This document shows, one piece after another, positions 16,530 through 39,212 of a DNA stretch of 64,000 nt. The first letter of the stretch is position 1, and the number at the start of each line of letters is the position of its first letter. The position numbers were made by a program, and so were the translations under genes. The notes under the pieces are model-generated. The model worked only from the letters and a program-made list of their open reading frames with translations, did no database searches and was not told the DNA's origin. Source of the stretch: Candidatus Woesearchaeota archaeon (GTDB taxonomy: Archaea; Nanobdellota; Nanobdellia; Woesearchaeales; GW2011-AR15); assembly GCA_016928835.1 (NCBI GenBank), contig JAFGJW010000006.1, forward strand, positions 244,191-308,190. Direction: 5' to 3'.

Positions 16530-17006
16530 ATGCAGAAAATAATAATCTGTGACACAGACAAATGTACTGGTTGCCGTATCTGTGAGTATGTCTGCGCGGC
16601 AGTCAATAGCAACCGATTAAATCCTAGACTAGCACGAATTCGAACAATAAGAAAAGAACCTGTCTTTGATTTGGCTTTATCCTGTAGGAAATGCGAGAAT
16701 CCGAACTGTATCAATGTTTGTGCCAATAATGCAATAACACAAGACAAAAAAACAGGCACAATAGTAATTGATGATGAAAAATGTGATGGGTGCGGTATGT
16801 GTGTCAATGCCTGCAATTTTGGTGTTTTAACTATTAATCTTGAAGGAAAAGCGGTCTATGTTTGCGACTTCTGCTTGGAGAATGACAAGAAAGCATGCAT
16901 TGAGTATTGTCCAAAAGAAGCATTATCCTATACAACCATTGACAATTTAAAGGAGCCAAGAGTAAAAAAATTCCATTCAAAATTAAGAGAGGTTGCTGAC
17001 TCCTAA
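16530..17006 (+). CDS. Four-cluster ferredoxin subunit (HycB/CooF type) of AOR
   Basis: 158 residues, starting immediately after the AOR stop, with GAGG in the AOR 3' end as its ribosome site. Four Cys-rich groups for [4Fe-4S] clusters are visible: CTGCRICEYVC (near 11-21), CRKCENPNCINVC (near 52-64), CDGCGMCVNAC (near 88-98) and CDFCLENDKKACIEYC (near 112-127). This is the arrangement of DmsB/HycB/CooF electron-transfer subunits. It should carry electrons from the AOR tungsten subunit to a soluble ferredoxin or another acceptor. Confidence 0.9.
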   Translation: MQKIIICDTDKCTGCRICEYVCAAVNSNRLNPRLARIRTIRKEPVFDLALSCRKCENPNCINVCANNAITQDKKTGTIVIDDEKCDGCGMCVNACNFGVLTINLEGKAVYVCDFCLENDKKACIEYCPKEALSYTTIDNLKEPRVKKFHSKLREVADS

Positions 17007-24029: not shown

Positions 24030-24944
24030 ATGAATGTTATTGTTACGGGCGGGGCAGGGTTTATTGGAAGCAATATTGCTCTAGAACTAGATAAAAAACA
24101 CAAGGTTACCGTGATTGATAGTCTTTTTTCTGGATACCTTAACAATTTAAAAGGATTCAATGGTAGATTTATTAACCTTGATGTAACTGATGAGAAAGTA
24201 TGTAATATTGAAAATAAGGCTGACGTAATTATTCATCAGGCTGCAATAACTGACCCGAGGTATGAGAATGATCATGAGACTTTCCAGAAGAATGTGAAAG
24301 GGTTCAAAAATATTCTCAAACTGGCTAAAAAATCTAATGCAAAAGTAATATACGCATCTACAGCGAATCTATATGGAAACGGCCCGTTTCCAATGAGCGA
24401 AGACCAAGATGTCAAGATAATAAGTGTTTACGGTAAATCAAAGCTTGAAATAGAGAAGATCGCTGCCACCCTACATACTAAGATGCATATTGTCGGTTTA
24501 AGATATTTTAATGTTTATGGTCCCCGGGAGTCTGGCAAAGGAAGACCCGCTTCGATGATCTATCATTTATGGAAACAGATGAGACAAGACAGAAAACCAA
24601 GACTATTTAAATTTGGGGAGCAAAAAAGGGACCAGATTTATGTCAAGGATGTTGTAACAGCAAATCTCCTAGCCATGAATGCTCCTTCTGGCGTGTACAA
24701 TGTGGGAACCGGAAAAGCAGTCTCTTTTAATGAGATTGTCAGAGTACTTAACGATTTGCTTGGTACACAACTTGATATAGAGTATATTGACTGCCCGTAC
24801 AATGAAGAAACATATCAGAATAATACACAGGCTAATACTGCCAAAGCAGAGAAATACCTAGGATTCAAGGCCAAATATTCATTTAGACAAGGAGTAAAAA
24901 ATTATCATGATTTTTTAGTTAGGCAAGAGGACGTGCATGGGTAA
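24030..24944 (+). CDS. hldD: ADP-L-glycero-D-manno-heptose 6-epimerase-like SDR
   Basis: 304 residues, an extended SDR with NAD-binding GGAGFIGSN at 7-15 and a Y-x3-K pair (YGKSK near residue 139). The C-terminal half is what points to HldD/RfaD: 'RLFKFGEQKRDQIYVKDVV', 'GVYNVGTGKAVSFNEIV' and a late 'YQNNTQANTAKAEKYLGF'. HldD converts ADP-D,D-heptose to ADP-L,D-heptose. It is first in a four-gene operon with every other heptose enzyme, and the next gene overlaps its end by 8 bases. A TATA-like stretch lies in the 35 bases after thyX. Confidence 0.87.
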   Translation: MNVIVTGGAGFIGSNIALELDKKHKVTVIDSLFSGYLNNLKGFNGRFINLDVTDEKVCNIENKADVIIHQAAITDPRYENDHETFQKNVKGFKNILKLAKKSNAKVIYASTANLYGNGPFPMSEDQDVKIISVYGKSKLEIEKIAATLHTKMHIVGLRYFNVYGPRESGKGRPASMIYHLWKQMRQDRKPRLFKFGEQKRDQIYVKDVVTANLLAMNAPSGVYNVGTGKAVSFNEIVRVLNDLLGTQLDIEYIDCPYNEETYQNNTQANTAKAEKYLGFKAKYSFRQGVKNYHDFLVRQEDVHG

Positions 24945-25437
24945 GATTGTATTTAAATCAGAACTCAGAAGCATTGTATCCCAAATCAGAAAGAGCGGTA
25001 AAAAGATTGTCACAACAAACGGTGCCTTTGACTTGTTCCATAAGGGACATGTAAAAAGCCTTAAGTTTGCCAAAGAAAAGGGGGACTTATTGGTTGTCTG
25101 CCTGAATAGCGATGAATCTATCAAAAAATATAAATCAGAAAAAAGGCCGATAATACCGCAGCAAGAGAGAGCAGAGATTGTTGCATCAAATATTTATACC
25201 GATTATGTTACGATATTTGATGAGAAAACACCCATTAAGATACTAGAACTGATACGGCCGGACATACATGTAAAAGGATCAGAGTATAGTAAGAGATTAG
25301 CAGAAAAAGAAGTTGTTGAGAAACACGGGGGGCAGGTGGTGTTCATGGAAAGAGACCCAAATGACACTTCCACCACAAAGATAATAAATAAGATCATAAA
25401 GCTCTATGGTGATTCGCATGAAGATAAATGTAATTGA
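24937..25437 (+). CDS. Heptose-1-phosphate adenylyltransferase (HldE C-domain/RfaE2-like)
   Basis: 166 residues, a single cytidylyltransferase-fold domain with TNGAFDLFHKGHVKSL (the T/HxGH nucleotide-binding motif as HKGH) and the late 'VKGSEYSKRLAEKEVVEKHGG' segment typical of RfaE2. It should join heptose-1-phosphate to AMP to give ADP-heptose. In most bacteria this domain is fused to the kinase; here it is a separate gene, and the kinase is fused to the isomerase instead. It overlaps both neighbours. Confidence 0.88.
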   Translation: MGKIVFKSELRSIVSQIRKSGKKIVTTNGAFDLFHKGHVKSLKFAKEKGDLLVVCLNSDESIKKYKSEKRPIIPQQERAEIVASNIYTDYVTIFDEKTPIKILELIRPDIHVKGSEYSKRLAEKEVVEKHGGQVVFMERDPNDTSTTKIINKIIKLYGDSHEDKCN

Positions 25438-26938
25438 TAAATTCAGTACAAAAAAAGTACTTGTTTTAGGGGATGTGATGCTGGACAAATACATATACGG
25501 TCAGACAACAAGGATCTCGCCAGAAGCGCCGGTTCCTATTGTCTGGATTACTAATGAGGAGAATGTTCCTGGTGGGGCGAGCAATGTTGCTAATAATCTC
25601 ACTTCGCTGGGCAGCAGAGTGTGTATTGCAGGAGTTATTGGCAGGGACAAGGACGGCAGAGTTTTAGAGAAGATCCTCAAAAACAAGCATATTGACACTT
25701 CACTGATATTTGAGGATGAAACAAGACCTACAACAGTGAAGCAGAGGATAATTTCGGGCAATAATTTCCAGTTACTTAGATTAGATTACGAGAAAACAAC
25801 AGAGATTTCACAGGATTTACAGAACAAGATGTTTAATAAAATCAAACAAACAATAAAGGGCTATGATGCTGTTGTAATTAGCGATTACGGAAAGGGAGTA
25901 ATCACAGAAGAACTTACTAAGAAAACCATCAGTCTAGCCAGATCCAATAACAAGCTAGTTATTGTAGACGGCAAGCCAGGCAATGTTCACTATTTCAAGG
26001 GATGTACTTTAATCACACCAAATCTCAGGGAAGCAATTGCAATGAGTGGTATACAGCAGGACATTCTTGAAATGGGAAGAAGACTTGTGAAGATGCTTGA
26101 TTCTGATGTTTTTATTACCCGCGGCCCAGAAGGCATCTCTGTTTTTAATAAAAAAGGAGACCATAGTCATGTGCCTCCGCTTAAAATAACAAAGATTTTT
26201 GATGTTACAGGAGCAGGAGACACTGTTGTTGCAGTCTCTACTCTCGGACTTATTAGTGATTTATCACTCATTGAATCTGCCAGACTCGCAAATTATGCTG
26301 CCGGCTTAGTAGTCCAGAAGCCAGGTACTTCTACTGTTACACCAGAAGAATTAAAAGGCACGTATGAAGAAGAGATAAGCCAGTATCTAAGAGAAAGTAT
26401 AGAGGTTAAGCAAAAGATAATTGTGGGGCAACTCAATAAAATAAAAAAAGCCGCACATCTATTTACACAGGCATATGCTAAAGGCAATAAAGTAATAGCA
26501 TTCGGCAACGGCGGCTCTGCTTCTGATGCCCAGCACTTGGTGGGGGAACTTGTAGGAAGATTTAAGATAGAACGAAGAGGACTGCCAGCTATTGCTCTTA
26601 CTACAGACTCTAGTGTTGTTACAGCTATTGCAAATGATTATGGCTATGAGAAGGTATTTGAAAGACAGGTGGAGGCAAATGCTGTCAAGGGAGACGTTGT
26701 TGTCGCAATATCAACGAGCGGGAATTCTCCAAATGTCCTTTTTGCCGTTGAAAAAGCAAAAAAAATCGGCTGTAAAACAATTGGACTAACAGGTAAAGAA
26801 GGCGGACAACTGTCAAAGATATGCGATGTCTCTATTGTTGTACCCTCTAGCAACACTCCAAGAATCCAAGAAGCACACATTGCCATAATCCATATAATAT
26901 GCGAGCTTCTTGATAAAGAGCTGGCAAAAAATGAATAA
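25418..26938 (+). CDS. Fused heptose-7-phosphate kinase (HldA) and sedoheptulose-7-phosphate isomerase (GmhA)
   Basis: 506 residues from ATG 25418 (a start 12 bases upstream is also open). Residues 1-315 form a ribokinase/PfkB kinase with GGASNVANNLTSLG near 50 and the catalytic motif DVTGAGDT near 260. Residues about 320-506 form a SIS-domain isomerase with FGNGGSASDAQHLVGE, 'AISTSGNSPNV' and the metal-site segment IQEAHIAIIH, as in GmhA. Together they turn sedoheptulose-7-phosphate into heptose-7-phosphate and then heptose-1,7-bisphosphate. The fusion puts steps one and two on one chain. The gene overlaps the transferase by 20 bases and GmhB by 8. Confidence 0.92.
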   Translation: MKINVIDKFSTKKVLVLGDVMLDKYIYGQTTRISPEAPVPIVWITNEENVPGGASNVANNLTSLGSRVCIAGVIGRDKDGRVLEKILKNKHIDTSLIFEDETRPTTVKQRIISGNNFQLLRLDYEKTTEISQDLQNKMFNKIKQTIKGYDAVVISDYGKGVITEELTKKTISLARSNNKLVIVDGKPGNVHYFKGCTLITPNLREAIAMSGIQQDILEMGRRLVKMLDSDVFITRGPEGISVFNKKGDHSHVPPLKITKIFDVTGAGDTVVAVSTLGLISDLSLIESARLANYAAGLVVQKPGTSTVTPEELKGTYEEEISQYLRESIEVKQKIIVGQLNKIKKAAHLFTQAYAKGNKVIAFGNGGSASDAQHLVGELVGRFKIERRGLPAIALTTDSSVVTAIANDYGYEKVFERQVEANAVKGDVVVAISTSGNSPNVLFAVEKAKKIGCKTIGLTGKEGGQLSKICDVSIVVPSSNTPRIQEAHIAIIHIICELLDKELAKNE

Positions 26939-27461
26939 GGCAGTTTTTCTTGACAGAGATGGCACAATCAACGTTGACAAAGGTTATGTTTACAAGAAGG
27001 AAGATTTAGAGTTTCTGCCAAATGCAGTAAATGGGCTGAAAAACATACAGCAACTAGGGTTTAAGCTGATAATAATCACTAATCAGTCCGGAATAGGTAA
27101 GGGTTATTACTCTGAAAAAGAGTATAGAATATTCATGAACGAGCTTTATAAAAAACTTGGTGAAAAAGGAGTTAAAATTGAAGCTGACTACTATTGTAAG
27201 CATGCACCTGAAAAAAAGTGCAGTTGCAGAAAACCAAACACAAAGATGATTGAAAATGCTGTAAAGGCGCATTGGATTGATAAACCAAACTCCTATTTTA
27301 TCGGGGACAAAACAGCAGACATCCTTGCAGGAAAGAACGCCAGGTTAAGGACAATTTTAGTATTAACAGGCAAGGCAGGAAAAGATGGAAAATATCAAAT
27401 CAAGCCAGATTATATATGCAGAAATCTCAAAGAGGCAAGTCAAATAATAGAAAAGTCATAG
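26931..27461 (+). CDS. gmhB: D,D-heptose 1,7-bisphosphate phosphatase (GmhB-like HAD)
   Basis: 176 residues from ATG 26931, which overlaps the preceding stop; a TTG start at 26910 is less likely. It is a HAD phosphatase with DRDGT (near residue 9-13), the second motif IITNQSGIGKG, a zinc loop YYCKHAPEKKCSCRKP and the last motif FIGDKTADILAGKNA. GmhB removes one phosphate from heptose-1,7-bisphosphate. It closes the heptose operon and completes the pathway in this archaeon. Confidence 0.92.
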   Translation: MNKAVFLDRDGTINVDKGYVYKKEDLEFLPNAVNGLKNIQQLGFKLIIITNQSGIGKGYYSEKEYRIFMNELYKKLGEKGVKIEADYYCKHAPEKKCSCRKPNTKMIENAVKAHWIDKPNSYFIGDKTADILAGKNARLRTILVLTGKAGKDGKYQIKPDYICRNLKEASQIIEKS

Positions 27462-27485
27462 ATTAAGCATAACATGTCCCTAGTA

Positions 27486-28583
27486 TTATTCTTCTTTGAG
27501 CAATTCTACTGCTTTTTTAAAGACTTCTCTAGGAGAGATGTCTCTCATAATCTTCAAGTCAGCTTCAAAATTTTTATTCCGAAGATAGTTCAGTGTGTTT
27601 TCCTGCGTGTTTTTAAAGATAGTGATTGTTTTCCCGTATCCTCTTGGTCCGGCTTGCAAGGGGCTGCTCGCACCAAAAATAACAAGTGTCTTTGTGCCCA
27701 CACTAGAAGAGAAGTGAGCAAGTCCAGAATCATTTCCAATAAAGAGATCACTAAGTTTAAGTATTGCACCAACTTCACTTAATGACAGTTTCCCGCAGAG
27801 ATTAATTACCTTTTTATCTATACACGCTAACTGCTTATTATATTCATACTCTTCTTTTGATCCTAATAGGAAAATAAGAGCATCAAATTCTTTCCTCAAT
27901 TTAATAATCAGTTGTTTAAAATGGTCAGGTGGCCAATTACGCCATACTGCTTTAGACTGGGAGTGAACACATATTGCTGTCTCTATTTTGGGTGATATTC
28001 CTAGTAAACTCAACTGTTTCCTTACTTTATTAATGTCCTTTTTTGAGACTTTTTTAATACAGACTGTGTCCTTTTTTGCAAAAGGTATTTCCGCCACTCG
28101 CAGCAAATCAAGATATGATTCAATTATATGTCGGTCATAATAACCATCATAAGAAAGCTTGCTTGGAGTTTTTTTTGTCAACAGAAAACTGAAGAGAGAA
28201 CCACTATAAGTATAACCAATCCTTCGCCGGATTCCTGCAAGCACGGGTATAAGATGCATAAAGAAAAAATTGGGGTATATGATAAAACATGTGTCAAAAT
28301 TCCGCTTTTTTATTCTCACAATTATTTTTGAAAACATTTTTAGATATGTTATGGCTTTAGAAAATTTATTTATTTCTGGGTCGCCTATTTTAGTTAATTC
28401 TCCTACTTCAATGATTTCATTGATTTCATTATTATCTTTCCAGAGTTCTTTGCTCATTCCATCTGCTGTTACAGCGATAAATGCTGTACCATAATTTTTC
28501 CTCAGAATATTGAAAAAAGACAACAGAAGAATTGAGTCCCCTATGGTGTTTGGAACCAGATTTAAGATTAGAATCCTCTTCAT
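27486..28583 (-). CDS. GT9-family (heptosyltransferase-like) glycosyltransferase
   Basis: 365 residues with the GT-B fold of LPS heptosyltransferases. The N-terminus reads NLVPNTIGDSILLLSFF (the family's glycine-Asp loop), the middle has 'GIRRRIGYTYSG', and the donor site is GNDSGLAHFSSSVGTKTLVIFGAS (about residues 288-310). GT9 enzymes use ADP-heptose or UDP/GDP sugars. The gene faces the heptose operon tail to tail, 24 bases apart, so it is the obvious consumer of ADP-heptose. It has no signal peptide and probably acts at the inner membrane face. Confidence 0.88.
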   Translation of the reverse strand: MKRILILNLVPNTIGDSILLLSFFNILRKNYGTAFIAVTADGMSKELWKDNNEINEIIEVGELTKIGDPEINKFSKAITYLKMFSKIIVRIKKRNFDTCFIIYPNFFFMHLIPVLAGIRRRIGYTYSGSLFSFLLTKKTPSKLSYDGYYDRHIIESYLDLLRVAEIPFAKKDTVCIKKVSKKDINKVRKQLSLLGISPKIETAICVHSQSKAVWRNWPPDHFKQLIIKLRKEFDALIFLLGSKEEYEYNKQLACIDKKVINLCGKLSLSEVGAILKLSDLFIGNDSGLAHFSSSVGTKTLVIFGASSPLQAGPRGYGKTITIFKNTQENTLNYLRNKNFEADLKIMRDISPREVFKKAVELLKEE

Positions 28584-28670: not shown

Positions 28671-29858
28671 TTAGTACAAACTTTTTTTTTCTGATATTAA
28701 AACAGGCCCCTCTATTTCGGCCGCTGTTTTATAGGCACTTAGTACTTCTTCAGGTGTGTTAGGAGTATAAACCGGAAAAGAAAAAAATCTTTTAAAGATA
28801 TCACTATAATCTTGTGTGTGTGTCAGGCCCGCATAAAAGGGTTTTATCCCCCCCACAACTGCCCTAATAATAACTGGCATTTTGAACTCACCCTCTGAAA
28901 TAATGTGGACTTTACTCAATTGGTGCACGAGTATATCTATAGCCGTCAGAACAAAATCATGCCTTTCAAAAAAAAGTACGGGCTTGAATCCCTCAAGCGA
29001 CATTCCCATAGCTAAGCCCGACATAAGATTTTCTGCTAAGGGCGTCTCAATCCTTTGTTCTTCAGGTATGTTAACAAGAGTGCCATATGCTGAACCATAC
29101 CTAACATTGTAACCCACAAAATAGGTATTGCTATCTTTTGATAGAATTTCCATTGATTTTTTAACTGCGTCTTTATAATTCAAGCTGTTGTGGATTTCTT
29201 CGATTTTTTGAGGAACCTGTTTCCTTTGAGGAAGCTTTGCTATTCTCGGTTCTCTCTCAAAATTAATCCATTTTCCGCTTCCGCTTCCACCGTGAGGATA
29301 TGTTGGTTCATAGCTGTATTTGATAACACAGTCAGGCCATTTAGGAGTGAATATACCTCGTCGGTCTTTTTTTGTGGAGCTAACAGACCGATCATTGTCT
29401 TCAATAATAAAGGTACACGGTAGATCCCAGCCTTGCACATACGCTACAGCTTCATAGAAGTTGCCTTCGTCTTCTGCACCATCTCCAACAAAACACCAGA
29501 CTTTATTCTTGCTTTTTTTCTTTTTTAAAGCCCAGGCCACTCCGGCGGCTATTGCAGGCGTGCCTGCCACAATAGAGGAACTATAAAAGTTCAGTTTCCT
29601 GTCAAAGACAAACATACTTTTACCCTCTAAAATAAACTTCTTCAATTTATCTGGGCTGCCGCCGCACAGCAGAAAATGATAATGGTTTCTGTGTGTGGAG
29701 AAGACATAGTCCCCCTCATTAACTTCCTCAAATATTTTTAGGAGCTCGTCTTCGTTTCCTCCTGATAAATGTATTAAATAAGGTATGTGGCCTTGATCAA
29801 ATAATTCTGCGATTTCTCTCTCAAACCGAATGAGTTCTTGTTGTGTTATTTTTTTCAT
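28671..29858 (-). CDS. Minimal fused TPP-dependent dehydrogenase E1 (alpha + beta) protein
   Basis: 395 residues in which both halves of a thiamine-diphosphate E1 enzyme are fused. Residues about 1-215 are an E1-alpha-like TPP domain with GDGAEDEGNFYEA and a closing EDND, as in the TPP/Mg motif. Residues about 220-395 are an E1-beta-like pyrimidine domain with the activating Glu in PLAENLMSGLAMG and 'THTQDYSDIFKRF'. The beta C-terminal domain is absent and alpha is shortened, since separate subunits would total about 650-680 residues. It should decarboxylate or transfer a two-carbon unit of a keto acid or ketose. Its place beside a GT9, a radical SAM enzyme and an SDR points to sugar modification, not central metabolism. 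Confidence 0.82.
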   Translation of the reverse strand: MKKITQQELIRFEREIAELFDQGHIPYLIHLSGGNEDELLKIFEEVNEGDYVFSTHRNHYHFLLCGGSPDKLKKFILEGKSMFVFDRKLNFYSSSIVAGTPAIAAGVAWALKKKKSKNKVWCFVGDGAEDEGNFYEAVAYVQGWDLPCTFIIEDNDRSVSSTKKDRRGIFTPKWPDCVIKYSYEPTYPHGGSGSGKWINFEREPRIAKLPQRKQVPQKIEEIHNSLNYKDAVKKSMEILSKDSNTYFVGYNVRYGSAYGTLVNIPEEQRIETPLAENLMSGLAMGMSLEGFKPVLFFERHDFVLTAIDILVHQLSKVHIISEGEFKMPVIIRAVVGGIKPFYAGLTHTQDYSDIFKRFFSFPVYTPNTPEEVLSAYKTAAEIEGPVLISEKKSLY

Positions 29859-29973: not shown

Positions 29974-31074
29974 CTATGGAAATCCCGCTACATTTGGGTC
30001 ATAACAAGATATCATTTCATGATAAAGTATATTTTTCTCATCATTTGCGCATTCATGATTACAGCTTTTTCTTGGATTAAATGATTTCATTGTATGAGCT
30101 ACCTCTTCACTAAACCACAATTCTTTGAATCTTTTGTTCATAATGGAGCCTAAACAACCTGTTGGATCATAAGCCTTATTATGGCAAAAATATACTTTAC
30201 TGTCTGCTGCAATAACTGGAACAACCTGTAAAAATAGGCAACGATCATAAAATCTTTTATTCCTTCCAGATGCCTCAAAATAATTACTATAGGAACTACC
30301 TACTTCAAAACTCTCATCTGATAATTCCCTTTTTGCACAATCTATCTGCTTTATTGCCTCATTTCTAAACGAGCGATGATATTCTTCAAATTTTTTGGTC
30401 CACATAGCACTAAACCTAATATTATCAGCACCTAAGTTCTTATAAAACTTCGCTGCTTCAAATATCTGATGTTGATTATACTCGTGAATCACAAAATTTA
30501 TTCCCAGAGAACATCCTAACTCTTTTTTTTTTGCAAAGTTTCGGATATTTTGTTTTATCTGAAAAAACATTTTTTCCGGCAGTTGTCTTGTTTTTGAGAA
30601 GATCTTCTCGTCACAATAATCCACAGAAATTCTTATCCAGGAACTATGTCCCAATAGCCTTGCCACCTCACCTTCTAAAAGCTGACCGTTAGTAATTATT
30701 GATAGTTTGATTTTTTTTTCCAAAATCCTTTTTAAGGTAGGGATAATGTGCTTGTATACTAATGGCTCTCCTCCTCCGGAGAGGGTTACTGCCTTGATAC
30801 CCATCTCCTTAAAATCTTCCAGTATCTCCTTCATTTTTTCCCAAGATATCTCATCATTAGTGTCGATATTGTCATGTATCCCTGAAAAAGAGGGATTATA
30901 CACGCAGAAAAAACAGCGATGATTGCATTTATTGGTGGGTTTCAATCTGATGTATATTGGTGCAGTTATTTCTCCCTTAACAAAAGACAATAATTTTTCA
31001 GGATGCCAGACTATTTTTAATTTAGAATACTTGCCGCTCTTCATGCCCTGATTATAATTAATTTTTTTAGCCAT
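29974..31074 (-). CDS. Radical SAM protein with SPASM-like C-terminus
   Basis: 366 residues. The [4Fe-4S] S-adenosylmethionine motif C50-x3-C54-x2-C57 (CNHRCFFC) is intact, followed by the TLSGGGEPL glycine block. The C-terminal third has a Cys set (CLFLQVVP...VYFCHNKAYDPTGCLG... and CNHECAN) that resembles a SPASM auxiliary-cluster domain. It overlaps the upstream SDR by 8 bases and precedes the fused E1 gene by 115 bases. A 5'-deoxyadenosyl radical reaction on a sugar or peptide is expected, with substrate unknown. Confidence 0.87.
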   Translation of the reverse strand: MAKKINYNQGMKSGKYSKLKIVWHPEKLLSFVKGEITAPIYIRLKPTNKCNHRCFFCVYNPSFSGIHDNIDTNDEISWEKMKEILEDFKEMGIKAVTLSGGGEPLVYKHIIPTLKRILEKKIKLSIITNGQLLEGEVARLLGHSSWIRISVDYCDEKIFSKTRQLPEKMFFQIKQNIRNFAKKKELGCSLGINFVIHEYNQHQIFEAAKFYKNLGADNIRFSAMWTKKFEEYHRSFRNEAIKQIDCAKRELSDESFEVGSSYSNYFEASGRNKRFYDRCLFLQVVPVIAADSKVYFCHNKAYDPTGCLGSIMNKRFKELWFSEEVAHTMKSFNPRKSCNHECANDEKNILYHEMISCYDPNVAGFP

Positions 31075-31756
31075 ATTTCCTTCTTAATAGCTGGATCTCG
31101 CTCACATATACACTCTCATTTTCTGTGCATAGTTGTGAAATCAGCTTGGCTGCCTCCTCTGGTTTAATCAAAAGGTCTTGGTCCTTTCTTTGGAAAGTCA
31201 TTTTAGTAGCCATTGCTGCTAAATAAACATCTGTAATTCTAATGCCTTTGCTGAGAACTTCCAACTTAAGGGAATTTGAAAACCCTTTTAATGCATGCTT
31301 ACTTGCGGAGTATAGTGTTTCACCATAGCTCCCTTTTTGACCTGCTAGGGAGTTAATATTAATGATAAGACCTTTGTTTTTCTCTAGGAAGTGGGGCAGA
31401 ATTCCCCTAACAAGCTTTACTTGAGAAATAAAATTTACTTCTACCATTGTGTGAATCTCATTTTCTTTCATATTTAGAAATTCGCAATTTAGATATTGAG
31501 CAGCATTATTTATGAGAATGTCAATATTGTTTTTTTTTGCTGCACTAACTAAAGTAGCAATAGTCTTTTCTGCGGTTAAGTCTCCTCTAACAATAATGTT
31601 TTCTGCACCGCGTTTTTCAATTTGTTTTTTTAGAGCATCCAGTGAAGACTTATCTCTTCCATGGGAGATAATTGTCCGGCCTTTGTCTGCCAGCACTAAA
31701 GCCAATTCCTTTCCAAGACCTTGGCTTGAGCCTGTTATCAAGATAGTGATTGGCAT
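31067..31756 (-). CDS. Short-chain dehydrogenase/reductase
   Basis: 229 residues, a classical SDR: cofactor loop TGSSQGLG at 8-15, NNAAQ near residue 85, a Ser in 'NINSLAGQKGSYG' and the catalytic Y-x3-K in YSASKHAL near 147. The basic residues after strand two (SHGRDKSS) suggest NADP preference. It heads the minus-strand set with the radical SAM enzyme, fused E1 and GT9. The direction and substrate of oxidation cannot be read from sequence. Confidence 0.9.
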   Translation of the reverse strand: MPITILITGSSQGLGKELALVLADKGRTIISHGRDKSSLDALKKQIEKRGAENIIVRGDLTAEKTIATLVSAAKKNNIDILINNAAQYLNCEFLNMKENEIHTMVEVNFISQVKLVRGILPHFLEKNKGLIININSLAGQKGSYGETLYSASKHALKGFSNSLKLEVLSKGIRITDVYLAAMATKMTFQRKDQDLLIKPEEAAKLISQLCTENESVYVSEIQLLRRKYG

Positions 31757-31887: not shown

Positions 31888-32856
31888 ATGAATATACTTA
31901 TTGTCGACTTAGCGGGGTGCAGAGAGCCAACACTTGGTTTCCAAATAAAATCTGCTTTTCTTGAGCTGGGATATAAAGTAAGGTCATTTAACTATAGAAA
32001 GTGGAAATTACAGCATTTTCCTGTCACAAATCTTGTATTAAATAAAATGATTGTTAATACAGCAGTCAAATGGCCTGCTGATTTTGTCCTGGTCAATAAA
32101 GGAGAAACACTTTTACCTGGCACAGTCACCAATATAAGTAGTCGGGGCATAACCACTGTAAACTGGAATCCTGATGAGCCTTTTGGCAAATTACAATCCT
32201 TTAACAAAATCAGAAACATAGAGGAATATGATGCTTTTTTTACATATGATAAACAGTATGTTAAAGAATTGAAAGAAGTAAATCCTCATTCTTACCACCT
32301 ACCGCCAGGAGCAGATCCAAATGGTGTATATAAGGAACAAATACCTTTGAAAAAAAGGAAGTATTCTGCTGATGTCTGCCTTGTTGGCACAGCCTATGCT
32401 AACCGGGTTGAACTGCTTAAGCAACTTAAGAAGTATCAAGTTAAAGTTGCGGGCCCGGGATGGTATAAAGCACCAGACAGAATAGCAAAAAGAGCCCTGC
32501 CTTTTGTCGATATCTACCAGATGGTTCAGCTCTTCAATAAGTCTAAGATTGTATTGAATCCTTATGGACAATCAAAACATTTTATTGTACCAAACCCAAG
32601 GACATTTGAGATTCCTGCCACAAGATCCTTCCAATTAACAGATATGCCTAGAGAAGTTAAACACTACTTTAGACCAAAGAAGGAGATTGTCGTGTACAAT
32701 GGTAAAGATGAGTTTAAGGAACTTGTTGATTATTATCTCGAGCATGATGAAGAGCGTGTTAAAATTGCACAGGCAGGCTATGAAAGGGTAATAAAAGAAC
32801 ACACAATGAAGCACAGGATACAGAAATTGTTGGGGATAGTTAAAAGACTAGAGTAA
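31888..32856 (+). CDS. CgeB/GT1_2-like glycosyltransferase
   Basis: 322 residues with GT-B layout. The N-terminal half shows the CgeB-like pattern (WPADFVLVNKGETLLPG, TVNWNPDEPFGKL, YDAFFTYDKQYVKEL). The C-terminal half is a glycosyltransferase 1_2 domain (GPGWYKAPDRIAKR, 'LNPYGQ', 'PNPRTFEIPATRSFQLTDMP', 'HTMKHRI'). It is cytoplasmic and transfers a sugar from a nucleotide donor. It converges with the zinc-ribbon epimerase (stops overlap by 9 bases). Confidence 0.85.
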   Translation: MNILIVDLAGCREPTLGFQIKSAFLELGYKVRSFNYRKWKLQHFPVTNLVLNKMIVNTAVKWPADFVLVNKGETLLPGTVTNISSRGITTVNWNPDEPFGKLQSFNKIRNIEEYDAFFTYDKQYVKELKEVNPHSYHLPPGADPNGVYKEQIPLKKRKYSADVCLVGTAYANRVELLKQLKKYQVKVAGPGWYKAPDRIAKRALPFVDIYQMVQLFNKSKIVLNPYGQSKHFIVPNPRTFEIPATRSFQLTDMPREVKHYFRPKKEIVVYNGKDEFKELVDYYLEHDEERVKIAQAGYERVIKEHTMKHRIQKLLGIVKRLE

Positions 32857-33966
32857 TCTCTTATTTTTTAATTCTTTGACCGCCTTATCAAATGTATCTT
32901 CTGATTCCTGGCTTTTGGACCAGGTTACTAATTCCTCCATACCTTCTTTAAGAGTAACTTTTGGAGCATATCCAAGCTTTGATTTAATCTTTGAGATATC
33001 TGCAAAACAATGTCTTATATCTCCCTTCCTATATTGCTGATTAATTTCTGGCTTTAATTTTGAACCAAAAATATTCAATAGTGTCTGAGCAACCTCATTT
33101 ATGGAGATTTGGTTGCCTGAGCCCACATTAAAGAGCTCATAATCAGCTGCTCTGGATTTCATGGCAAGCATGCACCCCCGGACAATATCATGAACACTGA
33201 CAAAGTCCCTGCTTTGTTTGCCATCTTCAAATATAGTTGGTGCATTATTATTTTTTATTCTGCTCATGAATATAGCTGCAACACCAGTATAAGGGTTGCT
33301 CAAACTCTGTCTTGGACCATATGTGTTAAAAAACCTTAATGCTACTGATGGGACACCATATGCTTTTCCCACATTTAATGTCAGCTCCTCTTGGTTCTTT
33401 TTTGTAATAGCATAAACACTGCTGTAAGATAGGTTTTTTGTTTCCGGGGTTGGGATAGGGGAGAGTATAGAACTGCAATCCGGGCAGGATAACTCCCATT
33501 GCCCTTTCTCTAAATCTTCGCTTTTCCTCTCAAGATTGTGAAATTCCTTATTGCATTGTTCACATTTGTAACTTCCCTCCCCATATATGCTCATGCTTGA
33601 CGCCACAATTACCTTTTTGACATTATGTTTTTCATTGGCTAACGCATGTAACAGGTTAGCAGTTCCCAGCTCGTTTGTCTCAACATATTCTCTTATCTGA
33701 TACATAGATTGGCCAACACCAACTCTTGCCGCGAAGTTAAAGAGTATATCAGAAATTACAACTTGCTCTTTCAGTTGGTTGTAGTTTCGAACATCACCCC
33801 TAATGAATTTTGCCATTGGATTTATGTGTTTAGGTGTTTTTTCTTGGTGGACTTGCGGTTCTAGGTTGTCAAATAATGTTACTTCATGTCCTTCTTCTAT
33901 TAGTTGGTCCGCTAGAAAAGAGCCGATAAAGCCCGCTCCGCCTGTAATCAGAACTTTGTGCATCAT
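32848..33966 (-). CDS. SDR sugar epimerase with zinc-ribbon insertion (dTDP-L-rhamnose 4-epimerase-like)
   Basis: 372 residues of an extended SDR: GGAGFIGS at 9-16, 'FNFAARVGVGQSMYQI' near 77-91, and catalytic Y185-x3-K189. After the SSMSIYGEG strand there is an insertion with C135-x2-C138 and C161-x2-C164 that can bind zinc. The same insertion and the 'GVGQSMY' segment mark dTDP-6-deoxy-L-talose-forming rhamnose 4-epimerases, so that activity is the best guess. No RmlC or RmlD gene is in the window, so whether dTDP-L-rhamnose is made is unknown. Confidence 0.82.
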   Translation of the reverse strand: MMHKVLITGGAGFIGSFLADQLIEEGHEVTLFDNLEPQVHQEKTPKHINPMAKFIRGDVRNYNQLKEQVVISDILFNFAARVGVGQSMYQIREYVETNELGTANLLHALANEKHNVKKVIVASSMSIYGEGSYKCEQCNKEFHNLERKSEDLEKGQWELSCPDCSSILSPIPTPETKNLSYSSVYAITKKNQEELTLNVGKAYGVPSVALRFFNTYGPRQSLSNPYTGVAAIFMSRIKNNNAPTIFEDGKQSRDFVSVHDIVRGCMLAMKSRAADYELFNVGSGNQISINEVAQTLLNIFGSKLKPEINQQYRKGDIRHCFADISKIKSKLGYAPKVTLKEGMEELVTWSKSQESEDTFDKAVKELKNKRLL

Positions 33967-34027: not shown

Positions 34028-34753
34028 CTATTTCTTCTTTGTACCTTTTTTAGCAATAAAAGAGGATGCACGATATAATGAAGTAAATATTCCTGCGTCA
34101 CTCCAGAACCCCTTTAAAATAGAAAATGTTGCAGTTCCTCTTTTAATATAGGTATTATTTACATCAGTAATTTCATATTCTCCTCTACCCGAAGGAACCA
34201 GAGTTCTTATAATGTCAAAGACATTTGGACTATACATATATATACCAACAGTTACATAATTTGATGTTGGATTCTTTGGTTTTTCTTCTATCTTGACAAT
34301 CCTATTTTTATCAATATATGCCACCCCAAATCTTTGAGGATCTGGTACTTCCTTCAGAAAAAGCCTCGCCTCTTCTTTTCCAGTAATAAATTCTTTAAAA
34401 TCCTTTGAGATATCCTCTTCAACGACATTGTCTCCCAAGATAACAACAAACTTATCTTGACCAACAAAATTTTTGGCTAAGGATAATGCGTTAGCAATTC
34501 CAAGACTACCCTCTTGAACTCGGTAAGTAAATTCTACACCATATTCTCTTCCACTCCCTAGTAATTTTAAAAAATCACCTGCACTCTCATTTCCACAAAC
34601 AATCAAAATATGACAAACACCAGCAGTTATTAATGTCTGAAGGGGGTAATATATCATTGGTTTATTATAAATTGGTAAAAGATGTTTATTTGTCACCTTA
34701 GTTAGTGGTAAAAGTCTTGATCCAGTTCCTCCTGCAAGTATAACTCCTTTCAT
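34028..34753 (-). CDS. rfbA: Glucose-1-phosphate thymidylyltransferase-like nucleotidyltransferase (RfbA type)
   Basis: 241 residues from the ATG at 34753, chosen because AGGTGA lies just upstream; a GTG 9 bases earlier is also open. The nucleotide-binding signature GGTGSRLLPLT-x-NKHLLPI is intact, with ILGDNVVEEDI as the metal-site block and 'GVAYID...IEEKPKNP' downstream, as in short archaeal RfbA. It should make dTDP-glucose (or another NDP-glucose) for the dehydratase encoded further upstream in the same run. It follows the RfbH-like gene by 5 bases. Confidence 0.88.
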   Translation of the reverse strand: MKGVILAGGTGSRLLPLTKVTNKHLLPIYNKPMIYYPLQTLITAGVCHILIVCGNESAGDFLKLLGSGREYGVEFTYRVQEGSLGIANALSLAKNFVGQDKFVVILGDNVVEEDISKDFKEFITGKEEARLFLKEVPDPQRFGVAYIDKNRIVKIEEKPKNPTSNYVTVGIYMYSPNVFDIIRTLVPSGRGEYEITDVNNTYIKRGTATFSILKGFWSDAGIFTSLYRASSFIAKKGTKKK

Positions 34754-34758
34754 ACAAA

Positions 34759-36054
34759 TCACCTTTTATTGCCTAAGTAAGTACTAAAACTATCAACCAC
34801 ATAGGTAATAATTTCCTCATTTATTCCTGGATGAATTCCAATCCAAAAAAGATATCTCATTATCTTATCAGTATATTCAAGTTTTTGATAAACCTTATAA
34901 TCTATATTTTTATAAGCAGGTTGACATGTCAAATTTCCTCCAAAGAGATATCTTGTTGCGATTTTTTTCTTATTTAAAAACTTAACCAACTCCGTTCTAT
35001 CAATTCTTTTATCCTTAATCAATATGGGAAAACCAAAGAAAACAGGCTCCGCTTTTGGATGGATTTTAGGAAGTTCGAAATATTTTGTGAATTTTTGGAA
35101 CTCTTTAGTGAGAATATTAAAATTTCGTTTTCTGATTTCGCAGAAATAGTTGAGTTTCTTAAGTTGTTCTAACCCCATTGCCGCCTGGAGTTCAAGGGGT
35201 TTCATATTGTAGCCAATTGTTGAATAAATATACTTGTGATCATAATTAACTCCATCTAGCATGTATCCAAATCTTCTTCCACAGGTATTACTTACTCCGG
35301 TATCACACCAACAGTCTCTCCCCCAATCTCTCAAACTTCTAATTATTTTGAATAGCTCTGAATTATTTGTTGTGATGGCCCCCCCCTCCCCAAGTGTTAT
35401 TGTGTGGGCCGGGTAGAAACTATATGTTGATGAAATACCGAAAGAACCACACATTTTTCCATTATACTTTGAGCCATATGCATCGCAACAATCTTCAATA
35501 ACGAAGAGTTTATTCCGTTTAGCTATACTCATTATTTCCCCCATGTCGCTTGGGTTTCCGAGGGTATGCGAGAAAAGTAATCCTTTTGTTTTTGAATTAA
35601 TTGCACGAAGTATCCCTTTTGGGGAGATATTAAGTGACTCATCAACATCAACGAATGCTGGGGTGAACCCTAATTGAATGATAGGATTAACTGTAGTTGG
35701 AAAGCTACATGCTGGGGTAATTATCTCTCCTCCATTAAGATTATATTTGACTTTAATCGCATCCAAAGCTAACAAATTTGCTGAAGAACCTGAATTCACC
35801 AATATGCATTTGTCTCTATTTGTATAATCAGCAAATTTTTTTTCAAAAGTTCTACCTGAGTTAGCTAATCCTAATCTGCCGGAAAGCAATGAATCAATAA
35901 CTGAATTTATTTCAGCACCGCTATATATTGCTAGTCCAGTAGTAATTGGGCTCTCTCCAAAAATAAATTCTTGTTTAGGTTTTTGAAATATCTCATTAAT
36001 TAGGGCATGTACTTTTTTAAGTTTTATTTTGTCAACTTTATTAAAAAGCATCAA
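34759..36054 (-). CDS. RfbH/AscC-like NDP-4-keto-6-deoxyglucose 3-dehydrase (PMP, [2Fe-2S])
   Basis: 431 residues of the DegT/DnrJ/StrS aminotransferase fold. The usual PLP-binding lysine is replaced by His in FYPAHTITLGEGG, the mark of C-3 dehydrases. The Cys set DCWCDTG...NTCGRRF (near residues 244-256) matches the [2Fe-2S] ligands of the E1 enzyme of 3,6-dideoxyhexose synthesis. It should remove the C-3 hydroxyl of a nucleotide-4-keto-6-deoxyhexose. The partner reductase (AscD/RfbI) is not in the window, and the local nucleotidyltransferase and dehydratase look dTDP-specific and not CDP-specific. Confidence 0.88.
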   Translation of the reverse strand: MMLFNKVDKIKLKKVHALINEIFQKPKQEFIFGESPITTGLAIYSGAEINSVIDSLLSGRLGLANSGRTFEKKFADYTNRDKCILVNSGSSANLLALDAIKVKYNLNGGEIITPACSFPTTVNPIIQLGFTPAFVDVDESLNISPKGILRAINSKTKGLLFSHTLGNPSDMGEIMSIAKRNKLFVIEDCCDAYGSKYNGKMCGSFGISSTYSFYPAHTITLGEGGAITTNNSELFKIIRSLRDWGRDCWCDTGVSNTCGRRFGYMLDGVNYDHKYIYSTIGYNMKPLELQAAMGLEQLKKLNYFCEIRKRNFNILTKEFQKFTKYFELPKIHPKAEPVFFGFPILIKDKRIDRTELVKFLNKKKIATRYLFGGNLTCQPAYKNIDYKVYQKLEYTDKIMRYLFWIGIHPGINEEIITYVVDSFSTYLGNKR

Positions 36055-36060
36055 ATCACC

Positions 36061-36993
36061 CTAGGTATTATTACGATAAAAGTCAACTGTTCTTCTTATA
36101 CCTTCCTTAAGAGTTACTTGAGGCGACCAGCCAAGCTTTTTTAACTCTGAATTATCACAGACAAAGTTAGTTATTCCTACTCTCTTATGAAAATCTGGTG
36201 GCTCAATCGGTTTTATTGTTCCTTTCCCAACTTCATGGATAACAAGATCCATAATCTCCCTAAATTTAATAAATTCTCCTCTACCCACATAATATACTTT
36301 TGATTTTTCTCCACTTTTTGCCATTATTAAACAAGCTTTTACTACATCAGAAATATAGATATAATCTCGGTAAAAATTACCGTTTGAATATAATGGAATC
36401 TCCTCCCCCCCCAATGCCAAGTTTATTAAATAAGTAAAACCTGCTTTTTTCTTATTCTTTGTCTGTTCTCTTATTCCAAAAACATTAGTAAATCTTGCGA
36501 TTAGAGCATTCATATCAAAAACATTGTTATATATTCTACAGAAATGCTCTCCTGCAAGTCTAGTTGCACCATATAATCCAAGAGGTTTACAGGGAGTATT
36601 GGGTTCAACAGGAATATCCCGTGCATTCCCATTAACAAAAAAAGTACTTCCATAGACAATTCGAACTGAAGGATTATTTTTTCTACATGCCTCCAATAGA
36701 GCAATTGTACCAACACAGTTCATATTTATATCCAGATAAGGATCATTGAGAACATGGTAATTATTTGTCGTACCCGCCAAATGGAAAATCCAATCAAAAC
36801 CAACTACTTCTCTATCGATGTCTCGAACATCTTTAATAATAAGTGAGACTTTGTCTTTGAATCTTCTTATATTTTCTATTTTTGAGGTAGTTTTAGATAG
36901 TAAGACCACTTTATACCCACAATCTACACATTCTTCTGCCAGATTGCTTCCTATAAAACCTAATCCGCCCGTTATGAGAATATTCTTTGACAA
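36061..36993 (-). CDS. NAD-dependent sugar epimerase/dehydratase (SDR)
   Basis: 310 residues from the TTG at 36993, chosen because AAAGAGGAG sits six bases upstream (37000-37008). An upstream GTG at 37029 would add a charged tail of 12 residues. Motifs: GGLGFIGSN, 'WIFHLAGTTNNY' and YGATRLAGE (Y-x3-K position reads Y-x3-R, so the catalytic lysine is replaced by Arg or shifted). Its start lies inside the end of the rfbB-like gene. It probably reduces or epimerises the 4-keto sugar made by its neighbours, as in paratose/abequose/tyvelose synthesis. Confidence 0.83.
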   Translation of the reverse strand: MSKNILITGGLGFIGSNLAEECVDCGYKVVLLSKTTSKIENIRRFKDKVSLIIKDVRDIDREVVGFDWIFHLAGTTNNYHVLNDPYLDINMNCVGTIALLEACRKNNPSVRIVYGSTFFVNGNARDIPVEPNTPCKPLGLYGATRLAGEHFCRIYNNVFDMNALIARFTNVFGIREQTKNKKKAGFTYLINLALGGEEIPLYSNGNFYRDYIYISDVVKACLIMAKSGEKSKVYYVGRGEFIKFREIMDLVIHEVGKGTIKPIEPPDFHKRVGITNFVCDNSELKKLGWSPQVTLKEGIRRTVDFYRNNT

Positions 36994-37967
36994 GTTTCTC
37001 TCCTCTTTATCAGTCTCTCCCACCACCACTCGTTTTTTTTATACCATTTAATTGTGTTATCTATCCCCTCTTCAAACTCTATTTTAGGTCCCCATCCCAA
37101 CTCTTTTCTTAGTTTGGAAAAGTCAATTGCATATCTATAATCATGTCCTTTTCTATCTTCTACAAATTCAATCATATCCTCACCAAAACCCATCTTCTTG
37201 ATAATAAATTTTGCCAAGTCAATATTTCTTATCTCGCAATTACCTCCAACACAATATGTTTCTCCAATCCTCCCCTTGTGTAAGATTAGATCAATTGCTG
37301 CACAATGGTCTTTAACATGCAACCAATCACGGACATTATGGCCCACACCATATACAGGTACTTTTTTCCCGTCAAGTAGATTAGTAATAAACAAAGGTAT
37401 TACTTTTTCCGGGTACTGATAAGGACCATAATTATTTGAACAATTGGAGATTGTAATAGGTAGATGATAGGTGTTAAAATATGCTCTAACTAAATGGTCT
37501 GCTGCTGCTTTGCTCGCAGAGTAGGGGCTACGTGGATTGTAGGGCGTGGTTTCAGAAAATTTTTCCTTTTCATCCAGTTCTCCAAATACTTCATCAGTTG
37601 AAATATGATGGAACCTTTTATGTCGATTTCTCCTTGCAGCTTCTAGCAATACGTGTGTACCAATAACATTCGTTCTTACGAAGTCCTCTGACTTTAGGAT
37701 TGACCTATCAACATGGGTTTCTGCGGCAAAATGCACAATTATGTCAATATCTTTAACAAGATTGTCCACTAGTTTCCAGTTACAAATGTCCCCTTTGACA
37801 AATTTATATTGTGGGTTACTTTCAATATCTCTTAAATTATCCAAATTACCACAATAGGTTAATTTATCCAAGTTAATGATTTTATAAGTGGTATATTCTC
37901 TCAACATATAACGAATGAAATTGCTCCCAATAAAGCCTACCCCTCCTGTAACAAGAATTTTTTTCAT
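36972..37967 (-). CDS. rfbB: dTDP-glucose 4,6-dehydratase
   Basis: 331 residues, normal length. RfbB hallmarks are all present: GGVGFIGSNFIRY, 'LDKLTYCGNLDNL', 'HFAAETHVDRSI', the STDEVFGEL block with the catalytic Asp-Glu pair, YSASKAAADHLVRAY, 'SNNYGPYQYPEK' and 'VRDWLHVKDHC'. It converts dTDP-glucose to dTDP-4-keto-6-deoxyglucose using bound NAD. Its end overlaps the next SDR by 22 bases and its start overlaps the glycosyltransferase by 4. The specific motif set makes the dTDP form more likely than CDP. Confidence 0.95.
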   Translation of the reverse strand: MKKILVTGGVGFIGSNFIRYMLREYTTYKIINLDKLTYCGNLDNLRDIESNPQYKFVKGDICNWKLVDNLVKDIDIIVHFAAETHVDRSILKSEDFVRTNVIGTHVLLEAARRNRHKRFHHISTDEVFGELDEKEKFSETTPYNPRSPYSASKAAADHLVRAYFNTYHLPITISNCSNNYGPYQYPEKVIPLFITNLLDGKKVPVYGVGHNVRDWLHVKDHCAAIDLILHKGRIGETYCVGGNCEIRNIDLAKFIIKKMGFGEDMIEFVEDRKGHDYRYAIDFSKLRKELGWGPKIEFEEGIDNTIKWYKKNEWWWERLIKRRETCQRIFS

Positions 37968-39028
37968 TTCTTGTAATTGAATGATTTTAGATTAATAAGT
38001 TTTATTATTTCAACTAGTCTTTTACCCAACTTATCTGGAGTTGATGTGGCAGTATAAAGCTTATAACCTTCATTAGCTATTTTATCTCTTAGACCAGGAT
38101 TATTTTTTAAAGTAAGGATCGCCTTAGCTAGAGAAGAAGGATTAGCAGCCTTACACAAGAATACATTTTTTCTATGTTGGAATAATGATTTAATAGCTGG
38201 TGTCTCTGAGGTTAATAACGGTTTTTTCATTGCAATGGTATCAAATGCTTTATGAGGTATGACCCTTCTTGTTTTTTTACTCTTACCAAAAATTCCCAAA
38301 CAGATATCTGCCTTTGCTAATTCCTCAGAAAGCTTGTATATACTTACCATGCCTTGGAAACATATATTCTTTAATTTTAGTTGTGTGTACAATTCCATAA
38401 TTTGATTATATGTCTGACCTCTTCCAATAATGTTAAATTTTATATTTTCATTTTCCAAAATCTTTGCTGCCAAAAGAATGAACTTAACACCTTGAAGAGG
38501 TATGAATGTTCCATAAAATACAACAGTGAATTCTTCTGATCTTGCTCTACGCGGATAGAATATTTCATTATCAGACCCAACTAATACCACAAAGATTTTT
38601 TTTGCTTTCAATTTAAATTCTCTAACAAAATATTCAATGTGTTCCTTAGTATCAAGGAGTATACAATCAGACATCATACAAGAAAATTTATCTCCAAACC
38701 ATAAAAGTTTGGCTAGAAGCGACTTTTTCTTAACTAATTGTCTATCATTAACTAAGTTATCATAGTCTGAAATGAAAGCATCAAAGATAATCTGTTTTCT
38801 GTGAATGAATTTTAGTAATTTAGTTACAAATAAACATAACTTACCTGTGACAAGAATAATATCGTAATCCTTATTTAATATTTTCTTAGCAATTTGAAGA
38901 TATTTAGATCGTGATTTGGGTAGAAACAGTTCGACAGATATATCTTGTTTTTTAAGGCCTTTATATAAAACTCTTCCTCTTGAGTAGAGGTTAATATCAT
39001 ATACTCCAAGCATTAAAAGTCTCATCAA
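37964..39028 (-). CDS. GT4-family glycosyltransferase
   Basis: 354 residues with GT-B fold. The C-terminal donor domain is recognisable: FYGTFIPLQGVKFILLAA, 'NIIGRGQTYNQI', 'ICFQGMVSIYKLSEELAKADICLGIF' and the 'VIPHKAFDTIAMKKPLLTSETPAI' block in place of the usual E-x7-E. It is first in the minus-strand rfb set and overlaps rfbB by 4 bases. It should attach a sugar made by the neighbouring enzymes. Acceptor unknown. Confidence 0.85.
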   Translation of the reverse strand: MMRLLMLGVYDINLYSRGRVLYKGLKKQDISVELFLPKSRSKYLQIAKKILNKDYDIILVTGKLCLFVTKLLKFIHRKQIIFDAFISDYDNLVNDRQLVKKKSLLAKLLWFGDKFSCMMSDCILLDTKEHIEYFVREFKLKAKKIFVVLVGSDNEIFYPRRARSEEFTVVFYGTFIPLQGVKFILLAAKILENENIKFNIIGRGQTYNQIMELYTQLKLKNICFQGMVSIYKLSEELAKADICLGIFGKSKKTRRVIPHKAFDTIAMKKPLLTSETPAIKSLFQHRKNVFLCKAANPSSLAKAILTLKNNPGLRDKIANEGYKLYTATSTPDKLGKRLVEIIKLINLKSFNYKK

Positions 39029-39212
39029 GTGGTATATTTCAAGCAGGACATATATATATTTATTGAAATGTTCACCTTTACCAGATTCATTTTTATTTAT
39101 CCAAAATATTATGAAAAAGTTTCAAAGTAATAAATACTGGATAAAAATTTTAAGAAATGGAAAAATTTATATTGTGGTCAAGATTGTTATTTTTCCAGGT
39201 GGGGGTGAGCTA

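Follow-up and report, generated by a model that had tools for sequence, protein, structure and literature searches.

A complete ADP-heptose gene set in a woesearchaeal genome and its probable use in a surface glycan

What does an archaeon without lipopolysaccharide (LPS) do with genes for ADP-heptose? The question is raised by a locus in Candidatus Woesearchaeota archaeon, a member of the Nanobdellota (assembly GCA_016928835.1). The window analyzed here is a stretch of 64,000 nucleotides, positions 244,191 to 308,190 of contig JAFGJW010000006.1; coordinates refer to the window unless another contig or a locus of our contig scan (L numbers) is named. Four plus-strand genes at 24030-27461 form an operon in which successive genes overlap by 8, 20 and 8 bp. 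A minus-strand gene for a GT9 glycosyltransferase converges with this operon across a 24-bp gap. The five genes, with the evidence for each, are as follows.

24030..24944, plus strand: HldD, ADP-glyceromanno-heptose 6-epimerase (TIGR02197, PDB 3sxp, catalytic residues, clade)
24937..25437, plus strand: HldC-type heptose 1-phosphate adenylyltransferase, single domain (TIGR02199, nearest PDB entry 5x9q)
25418..26938, plus strand: HldA-GmhA fusion, a PfkB-type heptose 7-phosphate kinase joined to a sedoheptulose 7-phosphate isomerase (TIGR02198, TIGR00441)
26931..27461, plus strand: GmhB, heptose 1,7-bisphosphate 7-phosphatase of the HAD family (TIGR00213, PDB matches 3l8e and 2gmw)
27486..28583, minus strand: GT9 glycosyltransferase, probable heptosyltransferase (PF01075, TIGR02195, predicted fold)

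We consider it likely that this archaeon makes ADP-heptose and that GT9 enzymes transfer the heptose to a heptose-containing, probably N-linked surface glycan. Judged from sequence, the ADP-heptose gene set is complete, and the enzymes that were checked show conserved catalytic residues. A sequence-only reading of this DNA had placed five ADP-heptose activities in one overlapping operon. All five are present, but the kinase and the isomerase, counted there as two genes, form a single chain of 506 amino acids (ATG at 25418, end at 26938) with HldA as the N-terminal half and GmhA as the C-terminal half. The same reading had suggested a heptose-containing surface glycan, which the pathway, the GT9 gene and the AglB context in relatives leave as the best explanation.

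HldD scored 262.8 bits against TIGR02197, below the curated cut-off of 274.6, and the next-best function, galE, reached 122.8 bits. Its top PDB match was 3sxp, an ADP-L-glycero-D-mannoheptose-6-epimerase (2.4e-51). Y134, K138 and K170 align with Y140, K144 and K178 of the E. coli K-12 enzyme, and the K178 equivalent was kept in 30 of 30 aligned HldDs but in only one of four other window epimerases. The adenylyltransferase scored 165.9 bits against TIGR02199 (curated cut-off, 181.5). Both proteins thus fall just under their cut-offs, and neither has a close competing family.

The kinase half of the fusion scored 352.4 bits against TIGR02198, above the cut-off of 345; the GmhA half scored 208.9 bits in the protein scan and 212 bits in the genome scan against TIGR00441 (cut-off, 209.45). 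PDB matches were 4e84 for the kinase half and 2xbl for the GmhA half. An AlphaFold model of the chain contains two domains (mean pLDDT 83), with a long helix at 309-337 linking the halves. Relative to E. coli K-12, the aspartate of the kinase GAGD motif and the equivalents of GmhA H61, E65, Q172 and H180 are conserved; proline replaces D169, at a position that is variable across the family. GmhB, which starts at ATG 26931 rather than at the TTG given in the open reading frame listing, scored 160.8 bits against TIGR00213 (cut-off, 149.6) and retains the DxD nucleophile pair and the CxH...CxC zinc ligands. The residues compared in HldD, GmhA, GmhB and HldA are those taken to be catalytic in these families. 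Residue numbers in the alignment are counted from 26934 for GmhB and from 25406 for the fusion and are therefore offset from the true starts.

The GmhA/HldE/GmhB/HldD pathway of E. coli resembles the window set in all steps, in the enzyme families and in the catalytic residues checked. In contrast to E. coli, the window genes lie in one operon, and there is no HldE-type kinase/adenylyltransferase chain: the kinase is fused to GmhA and the adenylyltransferase is separate. A further difference is that neither LpxC nor a Kdo-transferase domain was found in the window genome. LPS in this archaeon was rejected on these grounds, in line with the earlier statement that archaea have no LPS. A source of sedoheptulose 7-phosphate appears to be encoded in the same genome, which has a transaldolase (L158, 9017-9661) and a split transketolase with its two halves present (L156, 7617-9472). 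Split transketolase and transaldolase genes adjoin the heptose genes in two relatives (L034 and L035).

The GT9 gene faces the operon, as had been read from the sequence. Its product scored 93.4 bits against PF01075 (gathering cut-off, 22) and belongs to the GT9 family, with a GT-B fold. The best match of the predicted structure (pLDDT 87.5) was E. coli WaaF (1psw, TM 0.74/0.82), followed by a Veillonella GT9 (3tov) and WaaC; TibC was also among the matches. The protein shares its fold, its Pfam family and an invariant D-G-H motif with WaaF and WaaC, but it is only ~20% identical to them, is without an LPS acceptor and falls under the equivalog cut-offs, with 106.5 bits against TIGR02195, LPS heptosyltransferase II (cut-off, 134.6). 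In a genome of the same family (G076), the sole GT9 is a 48% ortholog of the window GT9; it is separated from HldA by 4.5 kb and is adjoined by orthologs of three more window genes (64%, 70% and 56%). The window contig also has, ~90 kb upstream and beside PMT-like and CDP-sugar-like genes, a GT2-DUF2304-GT9 cassette whose GT9 belongs to a different branch from that of the window. Co-occurrence and co-location with heptose genes and the WaaF-like fold predict that the window GT9 is probably a heptosyltransferase.

To see how widespread these genes are, we surveyed 279 Nanobdellota genomes, calling HldA at E<=1e-60; the Fisher tests used ignore relatedness. HldA was found in 60 genomes (about one-fifth), GmhA in 67, HldD in 37 and GT9 in 79. 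GT9 was present in 52 of the 60 HldA genomes versus 27 of the 219 others (Fisher, 8e-28), and HldD in 35 versus 2. At the threshold used, HldD was missing from 25 of the 60 HldA genomes. All 26 genomes carrying HldA, GmhA and HldD also carried GT9, and in 32 of 60 genomes GT9 was located within 10 kb of HldA. The survey, which the sequence-only reading had proposed as a check, found the pathway to be recurrent across the phylum, and the window operon is one case of a trait common in Nanobdellota.

Of the 41 genomes having both AglB/STT3 and HldA, 12 carried the two no more than 10 kb apart, as opposed to 0.77 expected at random (nominal p of 5e-11, which ignores relatedness and contig breaks). 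At several loci (L037, L041, L042 and L047), genes for AglB, GT2, DUF2304 and GT9 are followed by an opposite-strand NTP-transferase-like gene and the heptose genes. The AglB-GT2-DUF2304-GT9 series itself, at 622-5967 in L037, is conserved at these and further Nanobdellota loci. Pfam confirmed AglB in L037 and L059, and GT2, DUF2304 and GT9 in L037. In the window genome, AglB/STT3 is encoded on contig C20 (23868-25205, 119.7 bits). The linkage of GT9 and AglB to heptose genes supports a predicted N-linked heptose glycan.

In the proposed pathway, the GmhA half of the fusion would isomerize sedoheptulose 7-phosphate and the HldA half would phosphorylate C1. GmhB would remove the 7-phosphate, the HldC-type enzyme would adenylylate the product, and HldD would then epimerize C6. 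The adjacent GT9 and the second GT9 elsewhere on the contig would transfer heptose to a growing surface glycan, probably a lipid-linked oligosaccharide, which AglB/STT3 would attach to asparagines of surface proteins. At somewhat better than even odds, we suggest that manno-heptose is a regular block of the AglB N-glycans of Nanobdellota and that GT9s act on the lipid-linked oligosaccharide within an AglB-GT2-DUF2304-GT9-heptose island. If this is true, archaeal ADP-heptose would have a function, and GT9, familiar from LPS, would gain an archaeal N-glycan branch.

Several points weigh against this proposal. The window GT9 lies outside the operon, as the last gene of a minus-strand run of short-chain dehydrogenase/reductase (SDR), radical SAM and thiamine pyrophosphate (TPP)-enzyme genes. 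Both it and the second GT9 are under the curated LPS-heptosyltransferase cut-offs, and a lysine of WaaC that presumably contacts the donor aligns with arginine in the window GT9. Twenty-seven genomes have GT9 but no HldA at the thresholds used, so heptose need not be the GT9 substrate. AglB is not on the window contig, and its linkage to heptose genes is seen in relatives only; the N-glycan step thus rests on relatives. Finally, the heptose glycan proposed for this lineage is a prediction from gene context.

ADP-heptose may instead go elsewhere, into a glycolipid or an exopolysaccharide or onto proteins through direct O-heptosylation by GT9, with AglB a mere neighbor in a glycan island. We regard this as unlikely, though it is the alternative that survives best. 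RmlA/RmlB-like, RfbH-like and other glycan genes are also found at the window locus, to which AglB is unlinked, and TibC, one of the GT9 fold matches, represents bacterial enzymes that passages of PMC4358343 describe as heptosylating proteins directly. However, the AglB-heptose linkage is ~15 times the chance level in relatives, with the GT2-DUF2304-GT9 cassette in between, and the TibC-family model gave the window GT9 just 24.1 bits against a cut-off of 200.

It is improbable that a divergent gene set makes another nucleotide sugar, such as a modified heptose, a heptose activated with CDP or UDP, or D-glycero instead of L-glycero heptose as the final sugar. The sub-cut-off scores of HldD and the adenylyltransferase would fit such a product, as would the HldA genomes in which HldD was missed, but HldD keeps its Y/K/K set, including the K178 equivalent, and clusters with HldDs. 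The adenylyltransferase is without the STTR5 promiscuity motif, the residue before STT being T rather than arginine; passages of PMC11573728 tie this arginine to CTP/UTP use. CDP/UDP-heptose production was rejected on this basis, though the motif is no absolute requirement for it.

Bacterial contamination of the assembly, which the earlier reading had named as a threat to its claim and which the classically bacterial nature of these enzymes might suggest, is contradicted by a 328,730-bp contig on which the operon has archaeal MCM, FEN1 and tRNA-synthetase genes as neighbors, by the 0.22% contamination estimate of the genome (20 contigs totalling 1.53 Mb, with 95% completeness), by operon GC that matches the window (0.383 versus 0.362), and by closest HldDs that are all from Nanobdellota, across which the pathway recurs; it is excluded for practical purposes.

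In the HldD tree, the window sequence clustered with HldDs and apart from other epimerases, as the earlier reading required of a heptose enzyme, in a clade of 13 sequences that are all from Nanobdellota (97/96). Three other Nanobdellota sequences grouped with Pseudomonadota. These two separate placements point to more than one acquisition of HldD by Nanobdellota. The transfer from bacteria proposed earlier is likely, but with a history more complex than a single event; we infer its direction from a tree with narrow bacterial sampling.

Among the best 80 loci of the contig scan, in which fusion counts are lower bounds, the HldA-GmhA fusion was found in the window, in G221 (a genome of the same order), in G088 and in one Acidobacteria metagenome-assembled genome (L078), whose linker is similar to that of the window fusion. 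Support for a grouping of the four fused GmhA domains is weak (90/67). The fused kinases did not group in a quick tree, although a single clade was not rejected (p-AU 0.81). An archaeal invention of the fusion is unsupported, given its presence in the Acidobacteria genome and the indecisive domain trees. Two loci (L035, 7488-11000, and L048, 7489-11131) each contain two tandem HldA-type kinases, one fused to GmhA and the other not.

The ADP-heptose pathway is not new for archaea, contrary to what the sequence-only reading implied. Iplasma has a full ADP-L-glycero-D-manno-heptose cluster, for which S-layer glycosylation was proposed (Yelton et al. 2013, PMC3750248), and Methanococcus maripaludis KA1 and JJ carry ADP-heptose clusters (PMC12667266). 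According to passages of PMC11461863 and PMC11573728, archaeal enzymes made ADP-heptose in vitro (Tang et al. 2024), with M. maripaludis S2 mentioned; a passage of PMC11573728 has Tang and colleagues calling the purpose of archaeal ADP-heptose elusive. Capsular heptose metabolism genes are mentioned for Cuniculiplasma divulgatum, and Thermoplasmatales pilus N-glycans have been modelled with D-glycero-D-galacto-heptose, of a different configuration (PMC12448462). Searches of one open-access library for heptose genes of DPANN archaea or of Woesearchaeota yielded nothing specific.

Like the window, Iplasma and M. maripaludis KA1 and JJ have a complete or named ADP-heptose cluster among surface-glycan genes. 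The window differs from them, the clusters being compared by description, in its lineage (Nanobdellota/Woesearchaeota) and in that GT9 and AglB linkage has been quantified phylum-wide. The pathway that was active in vitro in the passages on Tang et al. 2024 is the same one, known here from genes. Adenylyltransferases are classed there as NTase alone, kinase/NTase or isomerase/kinase/NTase, whereas the window has an NTase alone plus a kinase-isomerase. New here are the kinase-isomerase fusion, the frequency of the trait in Nanobdellota, and the GT9 and AglB linkage. Seen in a large phylum of uncultured archaea, this linkage provides a concrete hypothesis, open to testing, for the purpose of archaeal ADP-heptose. 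The spread of ADP-heptose among archaea also matters to the ALPK1 field, since ADP-heptose triggers ALPK1 immune signalling in vertebrates (passages of PMC11461863 and PMC11573728).

The genes beyond GT9 comprise the remainder of its minus-strand run and three genes with orthologs at the heptose locus of G076 (L058).

28671-29858, minus strand: TPP enzyme, GT9-side run
29974-31074, minus strand: radical SAM/SPASM gene, GT9-side run
31067-31756, minus strand: SDR gene, GT9-side run
31888..32856, plus strand: glycosyltransferase (Glyco_trans_1_2/DUF3880); in L058, its 64% ortholog comes right after GT9
32848..33966, minus strand: nucleotide-sugar epimerase/dehydratase; 70% ortholog in L058, syntenic with the heptose locus
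37964..39028, minus strand: GT4-type glycosyltransferase; 56% ortholog in L058, syntenic with the heptose locus

The TPP-enzyme, radical SAM and SDR genes were rejected as parts of the heptose system, as a check of 40 relatives showed no copy of any of them close to HldA. The TPP enzyme is a single chain with an E1-alpha-like N-terminal half and an E1-beta pyrimidine-binding half, and it is without the C-terminal transketolase domain.

Farther along the window, an RfbH-like enzyme of aminotransferase fold (34759-36054, minus strand) scored 490.5 bits against NF011936 (cut-off, 423). About 100 kb away on the same contig (L157, 10569-12391), sugar-1-phosphate cytidylyltransferase-like and CDP-glucose 4,6-dehydratase-like genes were recognized by eye, which BLAST labels RmlA/RmlB-like. 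Together, these genes could possibly encode a CDP-3,6-dideoxyhexose route. RmlB, dTDP-glucose 4,6-dehydratase (36972-37967, minus strand), scored 500 bits against TIGR01181 (cut-off, 365), and an RmlA-like gene (34028-34762) was under its cut-off. A large, apparently secreted protein (39063-42146, plus strand) has thrombospondin type 3 repeats as well as a Vps62-like region that is weak and under the cut-off; placed amid glycan genes, it is a candidate glycosylated surface protein. At 14691-17006 on the plus strand, two genes were recognized by eye, the first resembling an aldehyde:ferredoxin oxidoreductase and the next a 4Fe-4S ferredoxin.
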